Assembly (NCBI RefSeq): GCF_013408525.1
Contig: NZ_JACBZM010000001.1
Coordinates: 2,356,001 to 2,420,000 of the forward strand
Reading direction: 5' to 3'
Source: Nocardioides aromaticivorans
Lineage (GTDB): Bacteria; Actinomycetota; Actinomycetes; Propionibacteriales; Nocardioidaceae
Length of the DNA stretch: 64,000 bases
Shown: piece by piece, positions 15,805-19,251 of the stretch
Layout of the letters: every line of letters begins with the position of its first letter
Numbering within the stretch: the first letter of the stretch is position 1
The notes under the pieces: generated by a model
Told to the model about the DNA's origin: nothing
The model's input: only the letters and a program-made list of their open reading frames with translations
Databases searched by the model: none
Translations under genes and position numbers: made by a program

Positions 15805-16929
15805 GTGGGACTCGTCGGAGACATCGATCGCGGCCAGCGCCGCAATTCGGTGTTCGGCTTCCCGCTGGCGGTCGTCTACAAGTTCTTCGACGACCAGGGC
15901 AACTACCTCGCGGCGATCCTCACCTTCTACGCCTTCCTCTCGATCTTCCCGCTCCTGCTGCTCGCCACGTCGATCCTCGGCTTCATCCTCGAGGGCAACC
16001 CGCGGCTGCAGGAGCAGGTCCTCGACTCGGCCCTCGGCCAGTTCCCGATCATCGGCGACGCGCTGGGCCGGCCGGAGGGGATCCAGGGCTCGACGGGCGG
16101 TGTCATCGTGGGCTCGCTGACCGCCCTGTACGGCGCCCTCGGGCTCGGCCTCGCGCTGCAGAACGTGCAGTCCGCCGCGTGGGCCGTGCCGCGCAACAGC
16201 CGACCCCACCCGGTGATGACCCGGGTCAACAGCCTCTTCATCCTCGCCGTGGCCGGCACCGTGATCTTCACGATCTCGGTCGGCTCCGCGGTCCTCACCG
16301 AGACCCGCCTCGTCGGCGAGCTCTCGCAGCACGGCTGGTTCCACTGGCTGGTGCGCCTGCTGACGATCCTCATCCTCGGCGCGACGATGACCGTGCTGCT
16401 GCGGATGGCCGCCGCGCGTGCGATCCGCGCCAACGTCATCCGGGCCGCTCCCGGCGGCTACACCATCGCCGTCATGTGGCAGCTCCTGCAGTGGATCGGG
16501 ACGATCTACGTCACCAACGTCATCGCCAGCGCCGACCGCAACAGCATGGCTGGCGTCTTCGGCGTCGTCCTCGGCCTGATGGGCCTGCTCTACATGGGCG
16601 CCGTGATGGGCGTCCTCGGCATCGAGGTCAACGTGGTGCTCGCCCGCCGGCTCTGGCCGCGTGCGCTGCTCACGCCGTTCACCGACTCCGTCGACCTCAC
16701 CGAGGCCGACCGCCGCGCGTACGCGATGTACGCCCAGATGCAGCGCCACAAGGGCTTCGAGACGGTCGCCGTCCGCTTCGAGGGCCGCGACGGCGACACC
16801 CACGACATCGTGCTCGACCCGAGGACCGAGAAGGTCATCAAGCAGCACCTCCCCGGCAAGCCCCCGCGCGCCGAGGCCGTCGACGAGCCCACCCAGCCCT
16901 TCCAGCTGCCGGCGCCGCCGGAGATCTGA
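15805..16929 (+). CDS. YihY/BrkB-family inner membrane protein
   Basis: 374 residues from a GTG. The first TM region FDDQGNYLAAILTFYAFLSIFPLLLLATSILGF is diagnostic for YihY/BrkB (once misnamed RNase BN). Five more hydrophobic segments run to about residue 285, and the tail is soluble and ends in a proline-rich stretch (AEAVDEPTQPFQLPAPPEI). Proposed roles in the family include transport or envelope integrity; unproven. It lies directly upstream of the repeat region. Confidence 0.85.
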   Translation: MGLVGDIDRGQRRNSVFGFPLAVVYKFFDDQGNYLAAILTFYAFLSIFPLLLLATSILGFILEGNPRLQEQVLDSALGQFPIIGDALGRPEGIQGSTGGVIVGSLTALYGALGLGLALQNVQSAAWAVPRNSRPHPVMTRVNSLFILAVAGTVIFTISVGSAVLTETRLVGELSQHGWFHWLVRLLTILILGATMTVLLRMAAARAIRANVIRAAPGGYTIAVMWQLLQWIGTIYVTNVIASADRNSMAGVFGVVLGLMGLLYMGAVMGVLGIEVNVVLARRLWPRALLTPFTDSVDLTEADRRAYAMYAQMQRHKGFETVAVRFEGRDGDTHDIVLDPRTEKVIKQHLPGKPPRAEAVDEPTQPFQLPAPPEI

Positions 16930-16959
16930 GTCGCGACGGCTCGGCCGTGGGTGGTCGCG

Positions 16960-17025
16960 GTGGGTCGCCGTGGTGTGCGTCGTGGGTCGCTGTGGTGTGC
17001 GTCGTGGGTCGCCGGGGTTTGCGTC
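16960..17025. repeat. Three 22-bp tandem repeats abutting the DUF559 cassette
   Basis: Three consecutive 22-bp units start at 16960, 16982 and 17004, all of the form GTGGGTCGC then GGTGTGCGTC with small changes. The first two differ by one base; the third differs at a few positions and runs into the left inverted repeat of the cassette. No reading frame of interest crosses it. Confidence 0.85.
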
Positions 17026-17063
17026 ATACGAAGTGGTCGTCGGAACGCTCGGTTCGTATGACG
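17022..17063. repeat. Solitary palindromic unit upstream of the DUF559 gene
   Basis: Arms CGTCATACGAA (17022-17032) and TTCGTATGACG (17053-17063) pair perfectly over 11 bp around a 20-nt loop. The same stem occurs in the five-unit array 1.06 kb downstream, where the left arm has a G in place of A (a G-T wobble if transcribed). The loop differs from the array loops mainly in its middle (TCGGAACG here, TTCCAGCG there). Confidence 0.9.
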
Positions 17064-17131
17064 TCCCCACCGTTCTCCACAGCTCGCCGACAGCCGGTGT
17101 CGTCCCGAGGGCCACCGGGCACGCACGGCGC

Positions 17132-18052
17132 ATGGATGACGTACGACGTGCGCGGGTCGACGAGCTCGCCGGGAACCAGTCCGGTGTGGTCGGGCGGCGG
17201 CAGCTCTACGCGGCGGGCATCACCCGCAGCGACGTGCGCGCGGCACTGCGCGCGCGGCGGTGGCAGCGGGTGAGCGACCAGGTCGTCGCCGTACACAACG
17301 GCCCGCTCACCCAGCGCGCCCATGAGTGGGCGGCCGTGCTGCAGGGCGGTCCGCGAGCGCAGCTGGACGGCGCCTCCAGCCTCATCGCCTCCGGCCTCGA
17401 GAGGTTCACCGTCGACCGGATCCGGGTGTCGGTCCCGCGAGGTGCGCGGGTGCGTCGTACTCGCTCCTACAACGTTCGCCAGACCCGCCGCTGGTCCGCT
17501 GACGACCAGGCACCCGGCGGAATCCCGCGCACGAAGGTCGCCGTCGCCGCCGTCCGCGCGGCGTTGTGGCTCGCCAGCAACGAGCAGGCGCGCCTGGTCC
17601 TGACGATGGTCGTCCAACAGGGACTGGCCACACCACAGCAGCTGGGCGAGGAGGCGCTGCGGATCCGCCGCGACCGTCGCCGCGACCTCATCCACGTGAC
17701 GATCGGCGACCTGCTCGACGGCGCCCGCGCGCTCGGCGAGCTCGACATCAAGCGCGAGCTGCGCCGCCGCGGGTTGCCGGCGCCGCAGCAGCAGGTGCTG
17801 CGCAAGGACCGGCGGGGCCGGTACTACCTGGACCTCCACTGGCCCGACCTCGGTGTCGTCGTGGAGATCGACGGCATCCACCACGCGTGGGCCGAGAACG
17901 TCGTCGGCGACGCCTTGCGCCAGAACGCCCTCGCGCTCGACGGCGACATCGTGCTGCGCCTGCCACTGCTCGGCCTCCGGATCCAGCCGGACGACTTCTT
18001 CGCGCAGATCGCGCGGGCGCTCGACATGGGTCGGCAGCGGAAGGCGGCGTGA
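17132..18052 (+). CDS. AbiEi-type HTH plus DUF559 (Vsr-like nuclease fold) protein
   Basis: 306 residues. Residues ~10-50 (ELAGNQSGVVGRRQLYAAGITRSDVRAALRARRWQRV) match the AbiEi-type winged HTH found in antitoxins of type IV systems. The C-terminal ~90 residues carry DUF559: RYYLDLHWPDLGVVVEIDGIHHAW, then a basic/hydrophobic end. This arrangement (acidic residue on a beta strand followed by E-x-D-G) is that of very-short-patch-repair-like PD-(D/E)XK enzymes. No AbiEii toxin is adjacent. Such proteins are frequent in actinobacteria but uncharacterised. Here the gene lies between palindromic repeats and inside an inverted repeat, so it may bind or nick them; that is a hypothesis. Confidence 0.8.
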   Translation: MDDVRRARVDELAGNQSGVVGRRQLYAAGITRSDVRAALRARRWQRVSDQVVAVHNGPLTQRAHEWAAVLQGGPRAQLDGASSLIASGLERFTVDRIRVSVPRGARVRRTRSYNVRQTRRWSADDQAPGGIPRTKVAVAAVRAALWLASNEQARLVLTMVVQQGLATPQQLGEEALRIRRDRRRDLIHVTIGDLLDGARALGELDIKRELRRRGLPAPQQQVLRKDRRGRYYLDLHWPDLGVVVEIDGIHHAWAENVVGDALRQNALALDGDIVLRLPLLGLRIQPDDFFAQIARALDMGRQRKAA

Positions 18053-18084
18053 CGGGTCGTCCGTGCCGTGGGTCGCGCGCGTTA

Positions 18085-18418
18085 CGTCATGCGAAGTGGT
18101 CGTTCCAGCGCTCGGTTCGTATGACGTCCGCCCGCACCCGCGCCGGACGGTCGGCAGCGTCATGCGAAGTGGTCGTTCCAGCGCTCGGTTCGTATGACGT
18201 CCGCCCGCGCCCGCGTCGGACTGTCCGCAGCGTCATGCGAAGCGGTCGTTCCAGCGCTCGGTTCGTATGACGTCCGCCCGCGCCCGCGTCGGACGGTCCG
18301 CAGCGTCATGCGAAGCGGTCGTTCCAGCGCTCGGTTCGTATGACGTCCACCCGCACCCGCGTCGGACTGTCCGCAACGTCATGCGAAGCGGTCGCCCCAG
18401 CGCTCGATTCGTATGACG
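18085..18418. repeat. Array of five palindromic units with exact 73-bp period
   Basis: Units start at 18085, 18158, 18231, 18304 and 18377. Each has left arm CGTCATGCGAA, a 20-nt loop (GTGGTCGTTCC then AGCGCTCGG, with small variants) and right arm TTCGTATGACG. Four 31-bp spacers separate them; each spacer begins TCC and holds a CGGAC which, with the preceding GTCCG, can form a second small hairpin. Spacers differ by a few bases. The array fills most of the 434-bp gap between the DUF559 gene and the phosphatase; nothing else codes there. Confidence 0.95.
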
Positions 18419-18486
18419 CAAACCCCGGCCACCCCGCAGACCGCGGCGACCCCGGCCACCGCAAGGAGCCGCACCTGCAGGCAGCG

Positions 18487-19251
18487 TCACTCCGCCCGGA
18501 GCAGCCCCCGCAGCCGGCCCAGGACGGCGTCGTCGAGGCCCAGCCCGTCGCGCAGGTACGACGCCCGGTCGCCGTACCGCTCCTCGACGGCGGCCCAGGC
18601 GGCGTCGAGGTACTCGATGTCGACGACGAGCGTCGGCTCGTAGACGGCGACGAGGTCGGGGCCGCCGTGCTTCTCGATCTCGGCCTCGACGCGCGCGCGG
18701 GAGGCGGCGCTGAGGGCGTTGGTCAGCAGGTAGTCGGACTCGATGGTCGGGTCGTCGACGCCGGCGACGTGGAGCAGCAGGGCGGCGACCCAGCCGGTGC
18801 GGTCCTTGCCCTGCGAGCAGTGGAAGAGCTGGGGGCCGCCGGTGGCGAGCTGGCGGAGCACGTCGCCGAAGGCGGTGCGGCAGTGCTGCTCGACGACGAA
18901 GCCGCGGTAGACCTCGTCCATCAGCGCGATCGCCTCGGCGCGGCTGGTCAGGCTGGAGAGCCGTTCGATGGGGATGCCGATGGCGTCGAAGTGGAGGTTC
19001 TGCACGCCGGGCACCTCGGGGTCGGGGTGCAGCGCGATCTCGGTGGCGGACCGCAGGTCGATGATGGTGTTGAGGCCGATGCGGTGCAGCGCCTCGAGGT
19101 CGACGTCGGTCAGCCGCAGGTCGTTGGACCGGTAGAAGACCCCGGTGCGCAGGCGGCCGCCGTCGCTCGTGGCGTAGCCGGTGCCGGCGACGTCGCGGAA
19201 GTTGTCGGCCGACGCCAGCCGGAGGTACTCGTCGCTCGCCTGCTCGCTCAC
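18487..19251 (-). CDS. Tyrosine-protein phosphatase (Y_phosphatase3/PtpB-like)
   Basis: 254 residues. The active-site loop HCSQGKDRTGW has the CX5R signature (Cys145, Arg151) with the KDRTG form seen in MptpB-like dual-specificity and phosphoinositide-active phosphatases. The N terminus SADNFRDVAGTGYATSDGGRLRTGVFYRSNDL is the conserved entry of this family. No signal peptide is evident. It is convergent with the repeat array and divergent from the sigma factor operon. Substrate unknown. Confidence 0.88.
   Translation of the reverse strand: MSEQASDEYLRLASADNFRDVAGTGYATSDGGRLRTGVFYRSNDLRLTDVDLEALHRIGLNTIIDLRSATEIALHPDPEVPGVQNLHFDAIGIPIERLSSLTSRAEAIALMDEVYRGFVVEQHCRTAFGDVLRQLATGGPQLFHCSQGKDRTGWVAALLLHVAGVDDPTIESDYLLTNALSAASRARVEAEIEKHGGPDLVAVYEPTLVVDIEYLDAAWAAVEERYGDRASYLRDGLGLDDAVLGRLRGLLRAE

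Follow-up and report, generated by a model that had tools for sequence, protein, structure and literature searches.

The gene for a DUF559 protein in Nocardioides aromaticivorans and the palindromes on either side of it probably form a REPtron-like unit, in which a nuclease of the Vsr/EDxHD fold would stand in for the tyrosine transposase and from which copies of the palindrome would have spread through the genome. Among bacterial repeats, palindromes of the REP type are common, and to our knowledge the enzymes tied to their spread are the RAYTs. Comparison of sequences shows that the gene is bracketed by palindromes, that its two sides match, that palindrome copies are dispersed, that gene and palindrome co-vary in a species-specific way, that insertion has occurred at sites empty in relatives, and that Y1 transposases are nearly absent. 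We infer that the nuclease binds and cuts the palindrome and drives its spread. The original prediction, that the window (the whole stretch of 64,000 nucleotides analysed) holds a self-contained unit of a nuclease-like protein and its repeats, is supported by co-occurrence, synteny and empty-site comparisons.

Table 1. Features of the DUF559 unit, in window coordinates.
Feature	Position	Strand	Remarks
Interval from stop codon to stop codon of the two convergent genes (YihY-like and phosphatase), holding the unit	16930..18486	.	1557 bp
Outer inverted repeat (22 bp), left arm: outer arm of the palindrome with the extension GGGTTTG	17011..17032	+	exact reverse complement of 18408-18429
Upstream 42-bp palindromic unit	17022..17063	.	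outer stem of 11 bp, perfect; 68 bp from the end of the unit to the ATG
AbiEi-DUF559 protein gene	17132..18052	+	306-aa ORF
Downstream palindromic unit 1	18085..18126	.	
Downstream palindromic unit 2	18158..18199	.	
Downstream palindromic unit 3	18231..18272	.	
Downstream palindromic unit 4	18304..18345	.	
Downstream palindromic unit 5	18377..18418	.	
Outer inverted repeat (22 bp), right arm	18408..18429	+	exact match to the left arm's reverse complement

The ORF and all six palindromic units, one before the gene and five after it, were located as predicted (Table 1), and the perfect 22-bp inverted repeat enclosing them proved exact. It consists of the outer arms of the first and last palindromes and an extension, GGGTTTG/CAAACCC, which is seen again after some of the units in other arrays of the same genome. 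Because it is made of palindrome arms and a recurring extension, the inverted repeat is not an independent feature. All units in the window start with CGTCAT and finish with ATGACG, and the five downstream units are spaced 73 bp apart. The claim that every unit shares the stem CGTCATrCGAA was right in part: the 11-bp outer stem is perfect only in the upstream unit, since all five downstream ones have a G opposite a T at position 7 of the arm. In the folded unit, whose outer stem is 11 bp, CGTC is paired with GACG at the opposite end; the middle of the palindrome is imperfect, with 14-15 of 21 positions pairing. The four units (of six) that were folded as single-stranded DNA gave energies between -10.8 and -14.4 kcal/mol, with z from -4.0 to -5.0. 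On the window stretch taken by itself, palindrome scores are unremarkable (12 for one unit and 11 for three, with 30 shuffles giving 0-2 at 11 or above), and the evidence for the palindromes is their recurrence. Rfam gave no match in 16900-18500 up to an E value of 1. At 16950-17025, three imperfect 22-bp tandem copies adjoin the outer side of the upstream inverted-repeat arm and overlap part of it. If the DNA at 18085-18418 is drawn as hairpins, the G opposite T at arm position 7 might be a Vsr-like substrate. The substrate of Vsr is T:G, and the resemblance is offered as an idea, not a result.

The 306-residue protein appears to have two parts. By fold matching, residues 4-195 take the AbiEi-antitoxin fold and residues 200-302 a Vsr/EDxHD-type nuclease fold, the latter matching the catalytic domain of the homing endonuclease I-Bth0305I, of the EDxHD class. 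EDxHD enzymes are homing nucleases, as the title of 3r3p also has it. Weaker fold matches (nucleotidyltransferases, NLR proteins and others) are common arrangements and were set aside. E203, D234, E245, D247 and R263 are shared by all 89 aligned homologues (100%), and identity is 98% at H251 and 97% at D260. DUF559 (PF04480) is the sole Pfam family over its cut-off in the protein (21.5 bits against a gathering threshold of 20.6), and it matched 18 of the 32 members of A1 (E 0.001). The PADLOC model of AbiEi matches residues 5-184 (E 3e-13); none of the four neighbouring proteins scanned is matched by any PADLOC model, and no AbiEii nucleotidyltransferase toxin was found among them.

If the unit inserts, relatives should include some in which its two neighbours adjoin, and such sites were found. 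Around the phosphatase gene 30 loci were read, of which 11 had the YihY-like gene in reach, three with the DUF559 gene and eight without it. Six of those eight are empty sites, with the two stop codons -4 (G025), 8 (G042), 15 (G145), 25 (G035), 51 (G186) and 76 bp (G020) apart; the other two are G192 (647 bp, another gene) and G062. Where the element is present, the stop-to-stop gap is 1557 bp here, 1191 bp in G033, 1177 bp in G091 and 856 bp in G093, whose gene is truncated. The 647-bp gap of G192 (L153) holds, besides its gene, a long palindrome beginning GTCGTAGGAGCC, like the palindromes of second-tier DUF559 genes. The dispersed arrays behave similarly. The flanks of 12 arrays were compared with 10 relatives, yielding 10 sites at 6 arrays with both flanks matched; at 7 of the 10 the relative has 5-91 bp where the own genome has 146-467 bp, and at the other three it has 155, 208 and 1512 bp of other DNA. 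No score-12 palindrome was present at any of the 10 sites. At the gene locus and the arrays alike, the intergenic DNA of the relatives is too diverged to fix the boundaries that would define exact ends or a target-site duplication.

Ordinary synteny had been named as an explanation that might undo the prediction. The 97 gene loci of the Nocardioides survey fall into 30 groups when both flanks must match (the largest with 16 loci) or 22 when any flank suffices, and these counts are upper bounds, as they rest on 1.3-kb flanks. One ancestral neighbourhood is insufficient for this pattern, and many copies are nonetheless inherited in place. Our reading is that the gene loci reflect inheritance in place together with repeated relocation; since gene copies are so often inherited in place, movement would be rare.

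The survey covered 196 Nocardioides genomes, 87 of which encode subfamily homologues at E <= 1e-60. In the profile search, with at most 11 candidates scored per genome, full-length subfamily members reached at least 442 bits and other DUF559 proteins at most 177, with fragments between or at the edge. Palindromes found de novo at a score threshold of 12 flank 93 of the 97 subfamily loci on at least one side and 58 on both. The corresponding controls gave 13/485 and 14/475 for dinucleotide shuffles (about 3%), 5/97 inside the gene and 7/97 in the distal flank. At a threshold of 14, 76 of the 97 loci are flanked on either side, with shuffles at 2/485 and 2/475. A named genome collection gave 77 of 80 loci with a flanking palindrome, including loci of Pseudactinotalea, Aeromicrobium, Segeticoccus and Terrabacter; its species overlap the 97-locus set, so it is not independent.

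Palindromes and gene also co-occur at the level of whole genomes. The pattern GTCATNCG..CGNATGAC is present in 134 of the 196 genomes in up to 87 copies, and its reversed control in 5 (1 to 7 copies). At least 5 copies outside the gene locus were found in 56 of 87 gene-bearing versus 15 of 109 gene-less genomes (Fisher p 1e-13, with no correction for phylogeny), and in 50 of 79 versus 9 of 91 when genomes at least 95% complete were compared. The repeat being widespread without any DUF559 gene had been put forward as grounds for abandoning the idea. Genomes lacking the subfamily gene do carry palindromes, for example G106 with 69 copies and G037 with 27, and conversely 11 of the 87 gene-bearing genomes have no copies beyond the gene locus with the pattern used. 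Palindromes in such numbers where the gene is missing speak against a strict dependence on it. The best DUF559 match of gene-less G106 is bracketed by a different palindrome; those of G057 and G013 have none above threshold.

In the N. aromaticivorans genome itself, the arm CGTCATRCGAA occurs 42 + 44 times and its reversed control 0 times. Allowing up to 5 mismatches, there are 54 full units at 21 loci including the window, and 20 of 22 other regions examined hold full units. The arrays have periods of 72-74, 83-84 or 93 bp. Six DUF559 homologues were found in this genome; the one in the window sits at an array site, and no homologue was detected beside any of the other array sites. A paralogue 70% identical to the window protein has a 46-bp palindrome of its own upstream, in single copy and not dispersed. 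The repeat sites are clustered, 21 of 24 (two being single arms only) lying at 1.13-3.33 Mb of contig 1 of this genome (G000); so dense a 2.2-Mb arc of the 5.07-Mb contig was equalled in 6 of 5000 random placements. At one locus (L018, G000:C1:1960126-1961585), a dehydrogenase-like gene has an array of the window repeat on either side, and the two arrays enclose no DUF559 gene. The right flank of another (L020) carries a different dispersed repeat, present in well over ten copies in the relative G139.

If each gene is tied to its own palindrome, the two sides of a locus should resemble one another, and dispersed units should resemble the gene locus of their own genome. Units found with the pattern GTCAT..ATGAC vary at their inner positions. 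Across the 64 two-sided loci, inner identity is 0.80 within a locus versus 0.46 between loci, and for 45 of the 64 the own locus is unbeaten as the upstream/downstream inner match. The dispersed units compared number 72, namely all those listed for seven gene-bearing genomes minus the units at the gene (37 picked ones were tested first). For 40 of them the gene locus of the own genome is unbeaten, and for 64 it is among the top 5 of 85 loci, leaving 8 outside the top 5. Resemblance to the own locus is weak in G053 (ranks 10, 5, 1 and 3), and individual dispersed units of G000, G074, G080 and G159 rank 6 to 52. Similarity between proteins and similarity between palindromes are correlated over 78 loci (Mantel r 0.39; 0 of 999 permutations).

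A rather unlikely alternative sees in the protein an AbiEi-type repressor, which would control its own gene by binding at the upstream palindrome, with the downstream copy serving as a terminator or second operator and the dispersed copies being regulatory or neutral and spread in some other way. The AbiEi-like fold would suit such a role, as would the position of the upstream unit, whose end lies 68 bp from the ATG here and mostly 75-170 bp from it in homologues. Moreover, both AbiEi and Rv2827c are reported to bind their own promoters at inverted repeats (PMC7319586). This account leaves unexplained the matching copy just past the stop codon, the tandem arrays, the species-specific array insertions and the likeness of dispersed copies to the local gene locus. 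The arrays also seem to keep clear of promoter regions: a heuristic gene call places the 21 array groups outside the window between convergent genes in 10 cases, tandem genes in 10 and divergent genes in 1, and 4 of the 21 overlap a predicted ORF. An operator role and a spreading role could both be true at once.

We consider it improbable that the palindromes move by other means, such as an unknown transposase, replication slippage or recombination, with the nuclease either a resident enzyme active in processing or limiting hairpins, or cargo caught between two copies. The persistence of palindromes in gene-less genomes (at least 5 copies in the 15 of 109 noted above) and the own-genome arrays bracketing a dehydrogenase-like gene at 1.960-1.961 Mb would fit it. 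On the other hand, nearly all subfamily loci and most of the distant paralogues examined are bracketed, and the palindromes differ between lineages, which would not be expected of cargo captured by chance. That the gene is a defence or toxin-antitoxin gene of the AbiE type, as the PADLOC match to AbiEi might suggest, is very hard to credit, with no PADLOC match among the four neighbours scanned and the same two neighbours standing together without the DUF559 gene at empty sites.

A REPtron-like unit remains the reading we favour, and among known systems REPtrons are the closest in organization. A palindrome-flanked gene with dispersed copies in the same genome is what marks a REPtron, and it is what we find here. 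As in REPtrons, the gene is present once or a few times per genome and often inherited in place, its flanking palindromes have dispersed intergenic copies, and the pairing of enzyme and repeat is specific to the lineage. Unlike theirs, the DUF559 protein has a predicted PD-(D/E)xK/Vsr-like rather than HUH/Y1 fold, and its palindromes lack the GTAG tag; the RAYTs are HUH/Y1 enzymes with GTAG-tagged REPs (PMC3733652). We rejected RAYTs as the explanation for the Nocardioides palindromes: Y1_Tnp (PF01797; RAYT-type) was not found in the own genome and was found in 1 of the 196 Nocardioides genomes. The same 2013 survey leaves CGTC-type repeats without an enzyme (PMC3733652). Those repeats resemble ours in being intergenic, and ours start with CGTCAT; as described there, however, they have an unpaired CGTC tag at one end and stems of 8-9 bp, whereas here CGTC is paired and the stem is 11 bp. 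Membership in the CGTC-REP superfamily was rejected because the tag is paired with GACG in the folded unit.

Three other systems share a domain with the window protein. The DUF559 part has the predicted fold of the I-Bth0305I catalytic domain. We know of no dedicated, self-dispersing flanking palindromes as part of that class of EDxHD homing endonucleases; the Nocardioides nuclease gene differs in having dedicated flanking palindromes that appear to disperse on their own. To AbiEi and Rv2827c the likeness is confined to the antitoxin-like fold of residues 4-195; here there is in addition a nuclease domain, no toxin partner was seen among four neighbours, and palindromes lie after the gene and dispersed through the genome. 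VsrA of Caulobacter is a Vsr-like DUF559 protein that is reportedly needed for a DNA damage response when a methyltransferase is mutated (PMC12907096). It shares the DUF559 domain with the window protein, and differs in that it is discussed as mismatch repair tied to cytosine methylation, with flanking repeats unmentioned in the available part of that paper (PMC12907096). In the open-access literature, excluding bioRxiv and most subscription papers, we found no DUF559 paper title on repeats and did not find the pairing described.

The association of gene and palindrome is wider than the original prediction had it. Distant paralogues at 32-39% identity (20 chosen from the profile-search matches and four from the own genome) have a flanking palindrome in 21 of 24 cases, on both sides in 12, with sequences differing by locus. 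A second palindrome family, GTCGTCCGCCT..AGGCGGACGAC, occurs in 18 of the 196 genomes in at most 12 copies each, with a control of 0. Its coordinates place it to either side of a second-tier gene in G190, G050, G041, G184 and G144, and on one side only in G101, G182 and G158.

With E. coli YcjD as query, DUF559 was found in 43 plasmid records, of which 26 were examined. Outside Actinobacteria, 11 of the 26 plasmid genes (8/14 plus 3/12) are bracketed by repeats, direct or inverted, whose length exceeds that at every one of 220-270 control positions drawn at random from the region around the gene. The 26 include two Sinorhizobium cases with the same palindrome, which may be one event, and one case that is a domain of a 4.8-kb gene. 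No such bracketing was seen at the other 15, at E. coli ycjD or at three Sphingomonas genes. On the plasmids of Deinococcus proteolyticus and D. psychrotolerans, CCTCCCC..GGGGAGG hairpins number just two, the pair that flanks the DUF559 gene. The same motif has 48 copies in A. brasilense (control 1), 17 in Methylobacterium (control 0) and 18 in S. meliloti (control 2), and it is absent from 4 of the 11 records searched (A. lipoferum, Novosphingobium, Qipengyuania and Pseudanabaena). GTCAT..AT hairpins were rejected as the plasmid counterpart: at 14 genes few lay near the gene, and the bracketing there is by other repeats, for example CCTCCCC..GGGGAGG. Some DUF559 genes lie inside operons (among L244, L256, L262, L252, L253 and L263), between sufB and sufC, between two transhydrogenase genes or between paaD and paaZ; others of this set lie antisense within hpa gene clusters on three Deinococcus plasmids.

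In the mechanism we propose, the unit of gene and palindromes would insert into intergenic sites, and palindrome-only copies, often amplified as tandem arrays, would spread through the genome. Most likely the AbiEi-like N-terminal part would recognise an inverted-repeat site in the palindrome, which the Vsr/EDxHD-fold nuclease at the C-terminus would nick or cut, perhaps as an extruded hairpin. Through repair, new sites would then gain copies of palindromes and, now and then, of the whole unit. Every DUF559 lineage would have its own cognate palindrome.

The broader generalization is one to which we give slightly less than even chances: that solitary DUF559 nucleases of the Vsr/EDxHD fold are the dedicated enzymes of a large, phylum-crossing, RAYT-independent class of palindromes, each lineage carrying, recognising and spreading its cognate palindrome, with very many separate pairs across Actinobacteria, Alphaproteobacteria, Deinococcus and Cyanobacteria. 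DUF559 has been a family of unknown function, and its tie to cognate palindromes, in a genus nearly without Y1 transposases, gives it a testable role. The many natural pairs of nuclease and target may allow a specificity code to be read out. If true, miniature palindromes would have a second way to spread, unrelated to the first.
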